Shown here: piece after piece, positions 1-9,826 of the stretch | Position numbering within the stretch: position 1 is the stretch's first letter | Layout of the letters: every line of letters begins with the position of its first letter | Assembly (NCBI GenBank): GCA_017540945.1 | Contig: JAFYAB010000097.1 | Span: forward strand, 1-9,826 | Length of the DNA stretch: 9,826 bases | Origin: Oscillospiraceae bacterium | Lineage (GTDB): Bacteria; Bacillota_A; Clostridia; Oscillospirales; Oscillospiraceae | Direction: 5' to 3' | Position numbers and translations under genes: made by a program | Notes under the pieces: model-generated | Databases searched by the model: none | What the model saw: the letters and a program-made list of their open reading frames with translations, nothing else | Told to the model about the DNA's origin: nothing

Positions 1-135
1 GGGGACGCTCTTACCCGTCAGGGTGAGCGTCCCGGCATTCGGAACGAATGCAATTTGCCGTAAGGCAAATCGGATCGTTTGCTTGCGCAAACGACGCATG
101 CTTCGCATGCGCGGACGAGCAATGCTCGTCCCTAC
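1..135. repeat. Multi-hairpin repeat core, copy 1 (truncated at window start)
   Basis: This is the first of five copies of a 138-bp core; the others start at 7083, 7268, 7453 and 9683. The first three bases (GTA) lie outside the window. The core is six consecutive inverted repeats: a GGACGCTC/GAGCGTCC stem with an inner ACCC/GGGT stem, GCATTCG/CGAATGC, ATTTGCC/GGCAAAT, TCGTTTGC/GCAAACGA, CGCATGC/GCATGCG and GGACGAGC/GCTCGTCC. It ends in CCTAC, which mirrors the GTAGG at the start of complete copies. Bases 1-141 are identical to 9686-9826. A repeat with this organisation resembles REP/BIME-type composite elements; no transposase is visible. Confidence 0.93.
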
Positions 136-192
136 ATCCCCTTTTGTAGCGCGGGCTATCAGCCCGCCCGTAGGGACAAGCAATGCTTGTCC
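136..192. repeat. Repeat tail: module-7 hairpin plus variant terminal hairpin
   Basis: After the core come a short linker and the seventh hairpin, GCGGGCT-ATC-AGCCCGC at 151-167. Directly after it, GTAGG leads into an extra hairpin, GGACAAGC-AAT-GCTTGTCC at 174-192. This last stem has the same layout and loop as the GGACGAGC-AAT-GCTCGTCC stem of the core, with one G-C pair replaced by A-T on both arms. It therefore looks like a variant of the same module capping the block before recN. Confidence 0.85.
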
Positions 193-1912: not shown

Positions 1913-3445
1913 ATGAAAAGAAAATCCGACAAAGGGCTGAATCCGTCGAAACGCTCCCTGGCCTTTCCGCTGACGGTCCTGCTTTCCTACGTCCTGCTGC
2001 TGATGATGTCCTACGGCTTTCCCGTTCTGGGGGACGACTGGGTCTTTCTCCCGGCCCTGGGGTCCAAGGCCTCGCTGCTGGAGCCCTTCCGCGCCGGCTG
2101 GGATACCGCCGCCCAACACTACATCACCACCAACGGACGACTGCTGGGAAATTTTATGGTGAAGTTCTGCTCCTATTCCAAGCTGCTGCGGGAGCTGATC
2201 CGCTGCGGGATCATCCTGGGCATCTGCCTCTGCGTGGATCGGCTCAGCGGCGACGGGAAGCAAAGGAGCGCTTTCTGTTATCTGATCGGCTTTACGCTGC
2301 TGGTGGCGATCCCCGCAAGGATCGCGGCGCAGACCTACGCCTGGAGCTCCGGCTTCTTCAACTATGTGCCCCCCACGCTGCTCTATCTGTTCTACGCCCG
2401 CTATGTCCGGGGGATCTTCTGCGGGGAAGGGCCGGAGAGCTCTCTGCTCCGCTGTCTGGGCCTCTTTCTGCTGGGCCTGGCCGGGTCCCTGTTCATGGAG
2501 AACCAGACCATCGGCTTCTGCCTGCTGTCGCTGGGGGTCTTCGCGGCGGATTGGATCCGCGGGAAGAAGCTGCGGCCCGAGCTGCTGCTGTGCTTCCTGG
2601 GCTCCGCCCTGGGCTGCTGCCTCATGTTCTGCGCGCCGGGCTATCACATGGTGGGCGAAGGGAACTACCGCAGTCTGCCCCAGGACCTTGCGGCGCTGAT
2701 CCAGGTGGTCCAGGAAAATTTTGAAACCCTCTCCGGCTATCTGATCCGCGGCAACAGCCTTGTGATCCACCTGCTGTCCGTCTGCGGGGCGGCCCTCTGT
2801 CTGCGGCGATACCCCCGGGCAAGCCGGAGGCTTCGACTGTTTTTGCTGTGCTCCATGGCGGTCTATCTCTGCTGTCCCGTAATCTTCTACGCCCAGGACA
2901 AGCTTTTCAGCCGCTACCATTTCCTGCTGGACTTTGCCGCCACCCTGATCTACTTCCTGAACCTGTTCCTGACCGGCCTGCTGGTGCCGGAAAAGAAGAC
3001 GGCGCGCTTCCCGCTGATCTTTTTCACCCTGTCCTTTGTGCTGTTCCTGTCGCCCCTGATGATCGTCCATCCCCTGGGCCCGCGGAACTGCTATTTCTTC
3101 GCGGTGCTGCTGATCGCCATGACCATGAATCTGCTGCGTCTGGCCCTGGGGGATCTGACGGCACTGCGTCCGCTGCGGGCCGCGGTCTGTCTGGCCTGCT
3201 GCCTGGTGCTGCTGGGCAATCTCTGGGTCTATTACCGCAACGGCAGGACGGAGCAGCTGCGGAATCAGATCGTCGCCGAAGCCATGGAGCGGGGTGATAC
3301 AAGCATCACCCTGCCAAGCTTCCCCTATCCGATCTATACCCATCGAGGCAATTCCAGCGCCATGACCTGGTACTATTACTATCAGAGCAAAGGCGACATC
3401 ACCTTTGAATACCAATCCTACGGCGATTGGATATCCACACACTGA
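1913..3445 (+). CDS. Polytopic membrane protein of unknown function (DUF6056-like)
   Basis: This 510-residue protein has a basic N-terminus and roughly 11-13 hydrophobic segments (for example about 16-36, 84-104, 117-135, 220-240, 306-326, 335-355 and 365-385), so it is an integral membrane protein. After the first segment lies an extracytoplasmic-looking loop with GDDW (40-43) and NGR (74-76). This layout recalls DUF6056-type proteins and GT-C glycosyltransferase-like membrane proteins, in which acidic residues in the first loop are important. The C-terminus (about 450-510) is hydrophilic and rich in aromatics, with WYYYYQSKG. The start ATG at 1913 has AGGTGA a few bases upstream. It lies between recN and tyrS with gaps of 12 and 20 bp. 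The family assignment comes from memory of motif layout, and no substrate can be named. Confidence 0.8.
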   Translation: MKRKSDKGLNPSKRSLAFPLTVLLSYVLLLMMSYGFPVLGDDWVFLPALGSKASLLEPFRAGWDTAAQHYITTNGRLLGNFMVKFCSYSKLLRELIRCGIILGICLCVDRLSGDGKQRSAFCYLIGFTLLVAIPARIAAQTYAWSSGFFNYVPPTLLYLFYARYVRGIFCGEGPESSLLRCLGLFLLGLAGSLFMENQTIGFCLLSLGVFAADWIRGKKLRPELLLCFLGSALGCCLMFCAPGYHMVGEGNYRSLPQDLAALIQVVQENFETLSGYLIRGNSLVIHLLSVCGAALCLRRYPRASRRLRLFLLCSMAVYLCCPVIFYAQDKLFSRYHFLLDFAATLIYFLNLFLTGLLVPEKKTARFPLIFFTLSFVLFLSPLMIVHPLGPRNCYFFAVLLIAMTMNLLRLALGDLTALRPLRAAVCLACCLVLLGNLWVYYRNGRTEQLRNQIVAEAMERGDTSITLPSFPYPIYTHRGNSSAMTWYYYYQSKGDITFEYQSYGDWISTH

Positions 3446-5456: not shown

Positions 5457-6904
5457 TGGAGGGCGAAAACCTGACCATGCTCTGCGACTTCTACGAGCTG
5501 ACCATGGCCAACGGCTACTTCCTGACGGGGAAAAAGGACACGATCTCCTACTTCGACGTCTTCTTCCGCTCCATCCCCGACCAGGGGGGCTTCGCCATCA
5601 CCGCCGGTCTGGAGGACGTGGTGCGCTACATTCAGAACCTGCGCTTCACCGAGGAGGACATCGCCTATCTGCGGAGCAAGGGGCTCTTTGACGAGGACTT
5701 TCTGGACTATCTGCGCCGCTTCCGCTTCACCGGCGACATCTGGGCCATCCCCGAGGGCACCCCGGTATTCCCCAACGAGCCCGTGCTGACGGTGCGGGCC
5801 CCCGCCATTGAGGCCCAGTTCATCGAGACCTATCTGCTGCTGGCCCTGAACCACCAGAGCCTGATCGCCACCAAGGCCAACCGCATCGTCCGGGCCGCCG
5901 AGGGCCGCACGGTGCTGGAATTCGGCTCCCGCCGGGCCCAGGGGGCCTCCGGCGCCATCAACGGCGCCCGGGCCTGCTACATCGGCGGCGTCAACGGCAC
6001 CGCCTGCACCATCTCCGACGAGCGCTACGGGGTCCCCGCCGGGGGCACCATGGCCCATTCCTGGGTCCAGATGTTCGACTCCCAGTACGAGGCCTTCAAG
6101 CGCTACTGCGAGATCTATCCCACCAACGCCATTTTGCTGGTGGACACCTACAACACCCTGCGCTCCGGCATCCCCGATGCCATCCGGGCCTTCAACGAGG
6201 TGCTCAAGCCCAAGGGCATCACCCGATGCGGGATCCGCATCGACTCCGGCGACATGACCTATCTGACCCGCAAGGCCCGGGAAATGCTGGACGAGGCGGG
6301 CTGGACAGAGTGCAAGATCTCCGTCTCCAATTCCCTGGACGAGTATATCATCAAGGACATCCTGGCCCAGGGCGCGAAGATCGACCTCTTCGGCGTGGGC
6401 GAGCGGATGATCACCGCCAAGTCGGAGCCGGTCTTCGGCGGAGTCTACAAGGTCTGCGCCGTGGAGGACGAGCAGGGGAGGGTGATCCCCAAGATCAAGG
6501 TCAGCGAGAACGTGGGCAAGATCACCAACCCCCACTATAAGAAGCTCTGGCGCTTCTATGGCCGGGACACGGGAAAGGCCATCGCCGACTATCTGAGCGT
6601 CTACGACGAGACCGTGGACGACTCCGGCGACTTTGAGATCTTCGATCCCGAGGCGATCTGGAAGCGGAAGACGGTCTACAACTTCGAGGCCAAGGAGCTG
6701 CAGGTCCCCATCTTCCGAAACGGCGAGCTGGTCTATAAGCTGCCCGCCCTCCGGGAGATCCGGGCATACTGCGCCGCCCAGGTGGACAGCCTCTGGGACG
6801 AGGTCAAGCGCTTCGACAACCCCCATCACTACTATGTGGACCTGAGCCAGAAGCTCTGGGACATCAAGCAGGCCATGCTGTTACAAGCCGGGAAGAAATT
6901 GTAG
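5456..6904 (+). CDS. pncB: Nicotinate phosphoribosyltransferase
   Basis: The enzyme makes nicotinate mononucleotide from nicotinate and PRPP (ATP-coupled), the first step of the Preiss-Handler route to NAD. The 482-residue product fits the family. It opens with MLCDFYELTMANGYF (8-22) and contains LEFGSRRAQG, the GTMAHSW segment whose His201 corresponds to the phosphorylated active-site histidine of the family, LVDTYNTLRSGIP, GIRIDSGD and GVGERMITAKSEPVFGGVYK, which matches the phosphoribosyl-binding region. The gene overlaps the divIVA-like stop by 1 base. No NAD-responsive riboswitch or operator is visible because its start lies inside the upstream gene. Downstream lies repeat DNA and no clear U-tract terminator. 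Confidence 0.96.
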   Translation: MEGENLTMLCDFYELTMANGYFLTGKKDTISYFDVFFRSIPDQGGFAITAGLEDVVRYIQNLRFTEEDIAYLRSKGLFDEDFLDYLRRFRFTGDIWAIPEGTPVFPNEPVLTVRAPAIEAQFIETYLLLALNHQSLIATKANRIVRAAEGRTVLEFGSRRAQGASGAINGARACYIGGVNGTACTISDERYGVPAGGTMAHSWVQMFDSQYEAFKRYCEIYPTNAILLVDTYNTLRSGIPDAIRAFNEVLKPKGITRCGIRIDSGDMTYLTRKAREMLDEAGWTECKISVSNSLDEYIIKDILAQGAKIDLFGVGERMITAKSEPVFGGVYKVCAVEDEQGRVIPKIKVSENVGKITNPHYKKLWRFYGRDTGKAIADYLSVYDETVDDSGDFEIFDPEAIWKRKTVYNFEAKELQVPIFRNGELVYKLPALREIRAYCAAQVDSLWDEVKRFDNPHHYYVDLSQKLWDIKQAMLLQAGKKL

Positions 6905-6923
6905 GATCGTGTATCAGGGGCAA

Positions 6924-7017
6924 GGGATTAAGGATTAGGGATTAAGGATTAGGGATTAGGGATTAAGGATTAGGGATTAAGGATTAGGAATTAAGAATTA
7001 GGGATTAAGGATTAGGG
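6924..7017 (+). repeat. Telomere-like GGGATTA/AGGATTA heptamer array
   Basis: Thirteen consecutive 7-base units occupy 6924-7014, followed by a final GGG. The units are GGGATTA or AGGATTA, mostly alternating, with two decayed copies (GGAATTA, AGAATTA) at 6987-7000. There are no indels, so the 7-base phase is kept throughout. The G-tracts every 4-5 bases could allow a two-layer G-quadruplex on this strand. The array lies between the pncB stop and the hairpin repeat block. Confidence 0.95.
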
Positions 7018-7034
7018 TGGGAAGAGAGATCAGG

Positions 7035-7082
7035 GATCCCCGCTTGTAGCGCGGGCTATCATCCCGCACGATACGTGCCGCC
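7035..7082. repeat. Partial hairpin-repeat unit (module 7 and spacer only)
   Basis: This matches the tail of the 185-bp unit: GATCCCCGC, a module-7 hairpin (GCGGGCT-ATC-ATCCCGC at 7051-7067, one arm base changed so the stem has a mismatch) and the GATACGTGCCGCC spacer leading into the first full core. The same leading partial unit precedes the copy after argR (9635-9682), so GATCCCCGC marks the left boundary of a block. Confidence 0.85.
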
Positions 7083-7267
7083 GTAGGGGACGCTCTTACC
7101 CGTCAGGGTGAGCGTCCCGGCATTCGGAACGAATGCAATTTGCCGTGAGGCAAATCGGGTCGTTTGCTTGCGCAAACGACGCATGCTTCGCATGCGCGGA
7201 CGAGCAATGCTCGTCCCTACATCCCCTTATGTAGCGCGGGCTATCAGCCCGCCTGATACGCGCCGCC
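7083..7267. repeat. 185-bp seven-hairpin repeat unit, tandem copy A
   Basis: The unit consists of a 138-bp core (7083-7220) plus module 7 and a spacer. Hairpins lie at 7088-7117 (8+4 bp, GTCA loop), 7120-7136 (7 bp), 7138-7155 (7 bp, GTGA loop), 7160-7179 (8 bp, TTGC loop), 7180-7196 (7 bp), 7198-7216 (8 bp) and 7236-7252 (7 bp). Core termini GTAGGGGACG and CGTCCCTAC are inverted relative to each other apart from one extra G. Relative to the other copies, this core carries a private change, GGTC for GATC, at 7159. Confidence 0.95.
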
Positions 7268-7452
7268 GTAGGGGACGCTCTTACCCGTCAGGGTGAGCGT
7301 CCCGGCATTCGGAACGAATGCAATTTGCCGTGAGGCAAATCGGATCGTTTGCTTACGCAAACGACACATGCTTCGCATGCGCGGACGAGCAATGCTCGTC
7401 CCTACATTCCCTTTTGCAGCGCAGGCAATCAGCCCGCCCGATACGCGCCACC
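7268..7452. repeat. 185-bp seven-hairpin repeat unit, tandem copy B
   Basis: Exactly 185 bp after copy A. Its core (7268-7405) differs from copy A in the loop of hairpin 4 (TTAC), at the junction base before that hairpin, and at the base of hairpin 5 (ACATGC for GCATGC). Module 7 is decayed (GCAGGCA-ATC-AGCCCGC), leaving two mismatched pairs. Confidence 0.95.
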
Positions 7453-7624
7453 GTAGGGGACGCTCTTACCCGTCAGGGTGAGCGTCCCGGCATTCGGAAC
7501 GAATGCAATTTGCCGTAAGGCAAATCGGATCGTTTGCTTACGCAAACGACACATGCTTCGCATGCGCGGACGAGCAATGCTCGTCCCTACATCCCCTTTT
7601 GCAGCGCAGGCAATCAGCCCGCCC
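7453..7624. repeat. Seven-hairpin repeat unit, tandem copy C (172 bp, lacks spacer)
   Basis: Exactly 185 bp after copy B. The core (7453-7590) differs from copy B only in the hairpin 3 loop (GTAA instead of GTGA). Module 7 is decayed in the same way as in copy B. The 13-base GATACGCGCCACC spacer is missing, and the unit instead joins the terminal hairpin beginning GTAGGGG. Confidence 0.95.
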
Positions 7625-7628
7625 GTAG

Positions 7629-7647
7629 GGGCGCTCATTGAGCGCCC
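7629..7647. repeat. Terminal hairpin of the repeat block
   Basis: This is a perfect inverted repeat, GGGCGCTC-ATT-GAGCGCCC, preceded by GTAGG. It closes the tandem block as the 174-192 hairpin closes the block upstream of recN. Its arms equal the outer arms of hairpin 1 (GGACGCTC/GAGCGTCC) with one compensated A-T to G-C change. Confidence 0.85.
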
Positions 7648-7666
7648 GAAGCCCCCCGCCCGGACG

Positions 7667-7684
7667 AGGGATTAGGGATTAAGG
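7667..7684 (+). repeat. Left 18-bp inverted heptamer repeat flanking the four-helix-bundle gene
   Basis: AGGGATTAGGGATTAAGG is the exact reverse complement of 8240-8257. The pair encloses 591 bp holding the AT-rich small gene. Because both arms are built from heptamers, the match may reflect the repeat family rather than element ends. Confidence 0.75.
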
Positions 7685-7753
7685 ATCAGGGTGTGTTAAG
7701 AGGAAAGGGAGAAGAGGGCTTGCTTGGTTTCGATCAGCAATCAGAGTTGCATT

Positions 7754-8110
7754 ATGAACAGTTTTGAAAAGTTGGTTTATTGGCAAAAGGCCAGACAATT
7801 GACAAAAGAGATTTATTCACTGACGTCACTTTTCCCAAAAGAAGAACAGTATGGATTGTCTGCTCAAATCAGAAGAGCTGCTGTCTCAATCTCTTCCAAT
7901 ATTGCAGAAGGATACGGCAGACAATATCGTGCGGATTACATCCATTTTTTGAATGTTTCCCGCGGTTCTTGTTATGAAGTAATGTCCCAGCTGCTGCTTT
8001 GCATCGATTTGGGTTTCATACAGGAACAACAGGCGAAGAAATCACAGGAACTGTGTGAAGAGATCGGAAAAATGTTGAATTCCGCAATTCAGTCCCTGCA
8101 GAATAAATAA
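7754..8110 (+). CDS. Four-helix-bundle protein (23S rRNA intervening-sequence protein family)
   Basis: The 118-residue product matches the small all-helical family first seen encoded in 23S rRNA intervening sequences and related to the Avd accessory protein of diversity-generating retroelements. Diagnostic segments are FEKLVYWQKARQLTKEIY at the N-terminus, LSAQIRRAAVSISSNIAEGYGR in the centre and the final EIGKMLNSAIQSL helix. The molecular role of stand-alone members is not established. The chosen ATG at 7754 starts the conserved part but has no clear Shine-Dalgarno sequence. A TTG at 7724 follows a GGAAAGGGAGAAGAGGG stretch and would add 10 residues. The gene is visibly more AT-rich than its neighbours, is not inside an rRNA gene, and is bracketed by inverted heptamer repeats, which suggests a separate origin. 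Confidence 0.88.
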   Translation: MNSFEKLVYWQKARQLTKEIYSLTSLFPKEEQYGLSAQIRRAAVSISSNIAEGYGRQYRADYIHFLNVSRGSCYEVMSQLLLCIDLGFIQEQQAKKSQELCEEIGKMLNSAIQSLQNK

Positions 8111-8239: not shown

Positions 8240-8258
8240 CCTTAATCCCTAATCCCTA
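8240..8258 (-). repeat. TAATCCC heptamer run upstream of nadK (right inverted repeat)
   Basis: The run contains two full TAATCCC heptamers. It is identical over 19 bases to 210-228 upstream of recN, and its first 18 bases are the exact reverse complement of 7667-7684. It ends 8 bp before the nadK Shine-Dalgarno sequence. Confidence 0.85.
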
Positions 8259-8266
8259 TTCAAATT

Positions 8267-9634: not shown

Positions 9635-9826
9635 GATCCCCGCCTGTAGCGCGGGCTATCAGCCCGCCCGATACGCGCCACCGTAGGGGACGCTCTTACC
9701 CGTCAGGGTGAGCGTCCCGGCATTCGGAACGAATGCAATTTGCCGTAAGGCAAATCGGATCGTTTGCTTGCGCAAACGACGCATGCTTCGCATGCGCGGA
9801 CGAGCAATGCTCGTCCCTACATCCCC
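9635..9826. repeat. Multi-hairpin repeat, copy after argR (runs off window end)
   Basis: A leading partial unit (GATCCCCGC, module-7 hairpin GCGGGCT-ATC-AGCCCGC at 9651-9667, GATACGCGCCACC spacer) is followed by a complete 138-bp core at 9683-9820 and ATCCCC. Bases 9686-9826 are identical to 1-141. The unit starts 11 bp after the argR stop, so the strong hairpins could end or protect the nadK-argR transcript. Confidence 0.93.

Follow-up and report, generated by a model that had tools for sequence, protein, structure and literature searches.

A probable tandem cluster of compound REPINs with GNA-loop hairpins in Clostridia and candidate RAYT partners in related genomes

RAYTs are single-strand-cutting HUH transposases related to IS200/IS605. 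One REP super-family is defined by a GTAG tag plus a palindrome, with stems mostly of 6–9 bp, some structured spacers and REPtrons, and in P. putida degenerate GTAG units are joined to unrelated stem-loops (PMC3733652). An E. coli RAYT is on record as cleaving REP DNA in single-stranded form, at GTAG (PMC3733652). In Pseudomonas fluorescens SBW25, REPINs were proposed to move as doublets and to build ordered tandem arrays, the largest of which holds four REPINs plus a REP over more than 700 bp (Bertels and Rainey 2011, PMC3116915); a figure legend of the same paper contrasts a long-hairpin with a clover fold. The literature already covers REPINs and their RAYTs, tandem arrays of REPINs and some structured spacers. 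In the available passages of Quentin 2018 (PMC6006769) Clostridia are named only for IS200 subclass 1.1, palindrome-defined REP candidates are on record for three Bacillota (PMC12306157), and 20 of 250 palindromic gut RNA candidates were left as possible REPs (PMC8040213). Separately, GNA or GNNA loops closed by G-C pairs form extraordinarily stable, nuclease-resistant DNA minihairpins (PMC4686876). Among the top-ranked results in the open-access literature we found no description of clostridial REPINs accompanied by RAYTs, and none of GNA minihairpins in REPINs.

Here we describe a hairpin-rich block in a 9,826-nt contig of an Oscillospiraceae bacterium (the whole stretch is called the window below). 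The block is very probably a tandem cluster of RAYT-type REPINs. Because its elements end in GTAG-tagged palindromes, are dispersed in relatives and have REP-flanked RAYTs there, we read it as a REPIN cluster and not primarily as a terminator, an mRNA stabiliser or an RNA gene.

Anatomy of the array and its surroundings

Repeat finding recovered three tandem copies with an exact 185-bp period (7036–7625, 3.2 copies, 95% match), in agreement with the three evenly spaced units of the initial annotation. The seven hairpins that it had counted per unit resolve into six in a 138-bp element, which starts with GTAG and ends with CTAC, and a solo GTAGC hairpin in a 47-bp linker (Table 1). The linker hairpin is GTAG-bearing and intact once and is decayed in the remaining linkers. 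The end of the block, previously set at 7624, has to be moved, since a complete third unit would run to about 7637. Palindromes are far denser than in shuffled sequence: 259 of the 605 bases of 7036–7640 lie in perfect palindromes (arm of at least 6), whereas 100 Markov-1 shuffles averaged 29 such bases and the highest of them reached 105.

The 138-bp elements consist of two half-units, A and B, that face each other in inverted orientation, and each half carries a GTAG-REP followed by two further hairpins, H1 and H2, on its own strand. The REPs thus stand as inverted pairs with their tags outward and a spacer between them, which is the REPIN layout. A strict scan for GTAG hairpins gave 10 matches in the window, all inside repeat zones, and the element copies sit between Pfam-matched genes. 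No RAYT gene was found within the 9,826-nt window.

Table 1. Repeat features of the window, with positions counted from its first base
Feature	Position	Strand	Evidence
Left-end copy, without the GTA of GTAG; element end at 135	1..141		exact redundancy with right end
Two solo REPs, GTAGCGCGGGC.. and GTAGGGACAAGC.., between end copy and recN	146..192	+	REP scan
Degenerate solo REP preceding unit 1	7046..7067	+	sequence; missed by strict scan
Compound REPIN copy 1, 138 bp, GTAG ... CTAC	7083..7220		DNA folding (six hairpins), repeat families
Half A outer hairpin, long REP class GTAG+GGGACGCTC..TTACCC..	7087..7118	+	fold
H1 of half A, GCATTCG-gaa-CGAATGC, GNA loop	7120..7136	+	palindrome scan, fold
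H2 of half A, ATTTGCC-gtga-GGCAAAT, GNNA loop	7138..7155	+	palindrome scan, fold
H2 of half B, TCGTTTGC-gcaa-GCAAACGA (minus-strand reading)	7160..7179	-	fold, half-unit comparison
H1 of half B, CGCATGC-gaa-GCATGCG (minus-strand reading); contains GCGAAGC	7180..7196	-	fold
Half B outer REP, GTAGGGACGAGCATTGCTCGTCC; identical sequence flanks G006 RAYT (L148)	7198..7220	-	REP scan
Linker solo REP, GTAGCGCGGGCTATCAGCCCGC; identical sequence flanks G023 RAYT (L153)	7231..7252	+	REP scan
Compound REPIN copy 2	7268..7405		repeat families, REP scan
Compound REPIN copy 3	7453..7590		repeat families, REP scan
Solo REP GTAGGGGCGCTCATTGAGCGCCC; differs by one loop base from REPs around G015 RAYT (L161)	7625..7647	+	REP scan
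Solo REP GTAGCGCGGGCTATCAGCCCGC after argR	9646..9667	+	REP scan
Right-end compound REPIN copy, after argR	9683..9820		repeat families, REP scan

DNA folding of copy 1 (138 nt) gave z = -10.4 and -9.1 for the two strands and predicted six separate hairpins on either; the 185-bp unit folded as RNA gave z = -6.9 and -7.1. Such stability on both strands would also suit an array that serves chiefly at the RNA level, with stacked hairpins that end transcription or stabilise mRNA and are selected at gene ends. A transcription end and an mRNA stabiliser were among the suggestions of the initial annotation; E. coli REPs have been reported as mRNA stabilisers (PMC12306157), and REPs are mostly found downstream of coding regions (PMC3733652). 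However, no terminator-like site (G+C-rich stem, then T run) occurs in 6850–7800, where 1.3 are expected from shuffles. The further proposal of a structured-RNA element was not borne out either, as no Rfam family matched the window at its gathering score and the strongest of the weak matches, with 15 bits where 100 are required, is at chance level.

The first 141 bases of the window are exactly its last 141 bases (1–141 and 9686–9826). Assemblers habitually leave k-mer-sized overlaps at contig ends, and this redundancy looks like such an overlap with k = 141. The genes nadK, argR, recN and tyrS are kept together in many relatives. We measured the argR–recN spacing by tblastn in 80 relative loci, and in the 39 where both genes were matched the gap was 13–101 bp in 36, -1 in two (probably spurious matches) and 840 bp in one. 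In the nearest relative locus (L001; TyrS 83%, ArgR 93%) the two genes are 28 bp apart; this is the sole empty-site comparison, is between species and depends on our reading of the contig ends. Since argR and recN adjoin in many relatives and lie at opposite ends of the window, the two end copies may be a single copy between argR and recN, and the contig may be an assembly loop artefact through the repeat. The two flanking copies noted earlier are thus present, but they may be one. Repeats of this kind are a warning, because they break metagenome assemblies and may loop them.

The gene next to the array (7754–8110, upstream of nadK) encodes a 23S rRNA intervening-sequence (four-helix bundle) protein and is by eye A+T-richer than its surroundings. 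Genes of this family (PF05635) occur in 42 of the 98 relatives described below, with up to 12 matches per genome. Heptad runs (GGGATTA/GGATTAA) accompany the repeats at 6925–7017, 7665–7690, 196–229 and 8240–8260; their orientation is opposite on the two sides of the gene, and they are rare in relatives. A mobile cassette of this gene, with the hairpins as its borders, would account for the adjacency to the array and for the inverted heptads on both sides. Of 30 PF05635 loci examined in relatives, 16 of them from repeat-positive genomes, only two have a GTAG hairpin, neither of the window's class, and only two have heptads; although the family is so common in relatives, the link was rejected from these loci, and we consider the cassette scarcely credible. 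The heptads were likewise discarded as part of the element, with only two dimers in 388 kb of relatives' sequence, one of them within 300 bp of REPs. Between recN and tyrS lies a gene for a DUF6056 membrane protein (1913–3445), which tblastn at 1e-8 found in none of the 80 relative loci.

REP classes and compound elements in related genomes

The comparison set comprised 98 genomes around the nearest relative, with the nearest genome (G001) included. The window's REP class, GTAGGGAC(A/G)AGC.., was matched in 23 of them, against 0 for a reversed-pattern control, and the H1–H2 core in 18, so the repeat is not confined to its contig; such confinement was one of two outcomes that the initial annotation had named as fatal to its proposal. 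Copies of the REP class are dispersed within a genome at up to 155 places (G023), those of the core at up to 47 (G017). In one genome, G067, the REP class occurs at 34 places together with neither the H1–H2 core nor a RAYT match.

We counted 210 GTAG-tagged hairpins in 388 kb of sequence drawn from G001 and ten repeat-positive relatives, many stretches of which were chosen around repeat matches, against 0 in the shuffles (one Markov shuffle for each of 20 stretches). In the 80 tyrS loci, which include L001 and span 1.29 Mb, there are 19; this figure does not purely reflect chance, because some resemble REPs of other classes. The core itself had no match in the 80 tyrS loci at 1e-3. Pattern searches found the exact long core in 0 stretches of the genome_contigs and viral_contigs collections and the outer hairpin pattern in 0 of viral_contigs, and blastn of 7036–7640 against phages and plasmids gave no match.

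Relatives mostly share one grammar: GTAG, the REP hairpin, 1–2 bases, H1, often one A, H2, a spacer, and then the reverse. Within it, hairpins are recombined in new combinations. We found 18 paired elements with inverted, outward-tagged REPs; one irregular, overlapping oddity (L115) was excluded, leaving 17 regular elements that still include near-copies (three in L147, two in L084, and the pair L081/L098). The long REP class of half A recurs in L090 (G011) and L091 (G026), with close variants in L088 (G021) and L095 (G015); no RAYT for this class was identified among those fetched from relatives.

By crude ORF calls, and after removal of short ORFs containing two or more repeats, 152 of the 210 REPs lie outside predicted ORFs and 58 inside. 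The REP-bearing gaps, by the same crude calls, are convergent in 10 cases, divergent in 9 and co-directional in 25, against 34, 35 and 85 for all gaps of at least 40 bp (the two sets of counts are not strictly nested). As these proportions match, gene ends are not preferred. This speaks against hairpins selected as RNA at gene ends and, together with the missing terminator-like site, against a transcription end or mRNA stabiliser.

RAYT genes beside the elements

The Pfam Y1 profile (PF01797) gave weak matches in relatives, along with some strong IS200-like ones (for example G010:C9 and G014:C148). Of 21 matches fetched, 17 RAYT-like proteins were aligned (alignment A1), with L152 (a response-regulator frame) and L164–L166 (a longer Y1 type) excluded. 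Most of the weak matches are proteins of about 160 aa. For the nine A1-type proteins scanned, the best NCBIfam family was REP_Tyr_transpos (NF047646), with E-values from 1.6e-15 to 4.2e-22 and 57–79 bits against a cut-off of 80. Both HUH histidines, a Tyr and an Asn are invariant in A1. The latter two align, by manual residue count, with Y115 and N119 of the E. coli TnpA-REP structure 4er8, which the A1 profile matches at E 1.8e-14; Y115 we take to be the catalytic tyrosine. Among the matches listed for the G006 protein, at least 120 homologues, four are named RayT by JGI and others are entered as 'transposase' of Oscillospiraceae or Clostridia.

At E ≤ 1e-10, A1-type RAYTs were found in 33 of the 98 genomes, 17 of the 23 that are repeat-positive and 16 of the 75 that are repeat-negative (Fisher p 7e-6, kinship uncontrolled). 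The six remaining repeat-positive genomes, G001 among them, were without an A1 match at this threshold. In REP-positive genomes all 16 fetched A1-type RAYTs, at least six of which are also A1 rows, have GTAG hairpins within 250 bp in a loose scan, 14 of them on both sides; in genomes without the window's REP class this holds for 5 of 14, one on both sides. Beyond the RAYT flanks, GTAG hairpins occur at 0.66 per kb in positive and 0.29 per kb in negative genomes. The strict scan missed the REP flanks of L156, L157 and L159, which were read by eye.

The REP class that flanks a RAYT varies between genes, and the more alike two RAYTs are, the more alike their REPs tend to be (Mantel r 0.51, p 1.5e-4, 15 pairs, with one REP per RAYT picked by eye). 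Full compound elements flank the RAYT on both sides in L147 (G011) and on one side in L148 (G006). Their outer REPs are of the window's half-B class, and the window's solo REP classes are carried by the L153 and L161 RAYTs; the agreement in sequence is given in Table 1. Small size and inverted ends would also fit a MITE of another transposase, such as a DDE element, in which GTAGGG/CCCTAC would be simple terminal inverted repeats. But the ends are GTAG-tagged hairpins, and the adjoining transposases are Y1/RAYT-like, with a likeness that follows that of the REP, and we regard such a MITE as most improbable. The suggestion of a composite mobile element in the initial annotation is supported: ends are inverted and GTAG-tagged, copies are dispersed, and matching RAYTs exist in relatives.

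Several observations concern RAYT genes more widely. Those in L155, L150 and L161 are accompanied by long regular arrays of one REP, for example with ten copies at 48-bp steps in L155:2414–2868, and G023 has several RAYT-REP classes within one genome. The stretches with the longer Y1 proteins (L164–L166, from G025, G001 and G026) contain no GTAG hairpin; the one from the nearest genome (L165, G001:C97) encodes a Y1 transposase of about 250 aa that scores 76 bits for REP_Tyr_transpos. In L237 (G025) a RAYT is flanked by GTAGGGGCGCGT-type REPs, and in G001 (L084) REPs of this class make up one end of mixed elements. Each end of such an element may be served by a different RAYT.

Loop classes, a proposed half-site and known systems

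We collected 66 half-units, five of them from the window, by stem pairing with the loops left free. Read on the GTAG strand, 59 of the 66 H1 loops are GNA (1 reversed) and 59 of the 66 H2 loops are GNA or GNNA (1 reversed), whereas REP loops are of neither type in any of the 66. Background triloop hairpins (207) have no strand bias, with 24 GNA and 30 TNC. Half-units share ancestry; counted by detected stem, the figures become 18 of 21 for H1 and 13 of 18 for H2, some stems being mere extensions of others. An eye count of the matches listed for H1, at least 150 cores, gave 145 GNA loops. In the 22 four-base H2 loops the third place has no purine bias (12 GNRA, 9 GNYA, 1 other).

The stems, on the other hand, covary. 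Alignment A2 kept 24 of 30 deduplicated nhmmer matches (near-duplicates and one truncated row were dropped). Alignment A3 kept 22 of about 40 listed matches: half-A matches, duplicates and odd rows, among them L092, L105, L168, L182, L094 and L175, were left out, and two L101 rows were lengthened by a few bases. In each alignment 9 pairs were changed on both sides, which 0 of 500 shuffles reached, although covariation alone cannot tell DNA from RNA. Further pair types, one of five measures, were not above shuffles (92 of 500 reached the count for A2 and 270 of 500 for A3), and H2 of half A had no compensatory pair in the half-unit alignments.

The loops follow the GTAG tag and not transcription, and only 12 of the 22 four-base loops are GNRA, unlike the bias expected for RNA tetraloops; this is suggestive of DNA, more than of RNA, as the selected molecule. 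With the evidence on gene ends, this makes the RNA device an unlikely account of the array.

The halves of an element are unlike: H1 and H2 stems differ between halves in all 17 regular elements, even in the seven whose outer REP stems are identical. The two outer REPs of L147 are predicted to pair with each other as DNA, giving a long stem topped by the inner hairpins, and one strand of L103 is predicted to fold in the same way; for the window element the prediction is separate hairpins. The strand bias of the loops and the unlikeness of the halves suggest selection on single-stranded DNA.

Taken as a whole, a REPIN cluster moved by a RAYT is very probably the right explanation. The elements would be non-autonomous miniature units mobilised in trans: a RAYT would recognise the GTAG-REP of a half-unit while the locus is single-stranded, then excise and paste the element, and the array could arise through repeated insertion or unequal exchange. 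H1 and H2 would then act as stable DNA minihairpins, by which the strand might stay folded, its ends presented and nucleases away; this role is plausible, though somewhat less likely than not. More tentative still is the proposal that GTAG-REP, H1 and H2 together make up a three-hairpin half-site, the functional unit of these REPINs, and that selection has kept its H1 and H2 as GNA/GNNA minihairpins on the GTAG strand. Being unlike, the two ends would each fold locally as single-stranded DNA and avoid collapse into one long hairpin, so that the transposition intermediate is protected or presented. If true, the extraordinarily stable GCGAAGC-type fold would here have found a use in a genome. 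The pattern of stems free to covary and loops held, nearly always on the tagged strand, to a stable class offers a clue to how REPINs may be selected as single-stranded DNA.

This reading brings uncultured gut Clostridia into the range of REPIN/RAYT biology, and a single genome among them can carry several RAYT-REP pairs. The initial annotation knew of no named family with this layout and had set a match to a described repeat or transposon family as its second refuting outcome; the exact layout is indeed unmatched, but the kind is already described, and the window's repeats are a new family of REPs and REPINs. Like those of SBW25, the elements are inverted, hairpin-forming REP doublets in ordered tandem arrays of near-identical copies, with compensatory changes and a class-specific RAYT beside clusters (PMC3116915). 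In SBW25, however, the spacer of one REPIN pairs into a hairpin (PMC3116915), whereas the clostridial element has four extra GNA/GNNA hairpins and unlike halves. With the GTAG super-family (Di Nocera et al. 2013, PMC3733652) they share GTAG at one stem end and inverted dimers or heterodimers. The phyla named in the available text of that paper are Proteobacteria, Cyanobacteria, Chloroflexi and PVC, with Firmicutes and Clostrid- absent there, while the present family is from Clostridia; the fixed REP-H1-H2 half-unit is a clostridial feature that is not among the descriptions in that text.

The proteins share with known RAYTs and TnpA-REP (PMC6006769, PMC2817692, 4er8) the HUH motif, the Tyr, the Asn, a length of about 160 aa and REP flanks, but have diverged from them, as their scores below the NF047646 cut-off indicate. 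RepRanger candidates (PMC12306157) are likewise palindromic intergenic repeats, and two clostridial-looking species are tabulated; those candidates follow palindrome and energy rules derived from E. coli, with no RAYT mentioned in the accessible part of the paper, whereas the clostridial family is tied to RAYTs. Finally, H1 and H2 resemble the d(GCGAAGC)-type minihairpins (Hirao, Yoshizawa, via PMC4686876) in having a GNA/GNNA loop and at least two G-C pairs, and H1 of half B contains the very sequence of d(GCGAAGC). The passages on these minihairpins in PMC4686876 present them as in vitro motifs, with no tie to transposition; the clostridial H1 and H2 are genomic.
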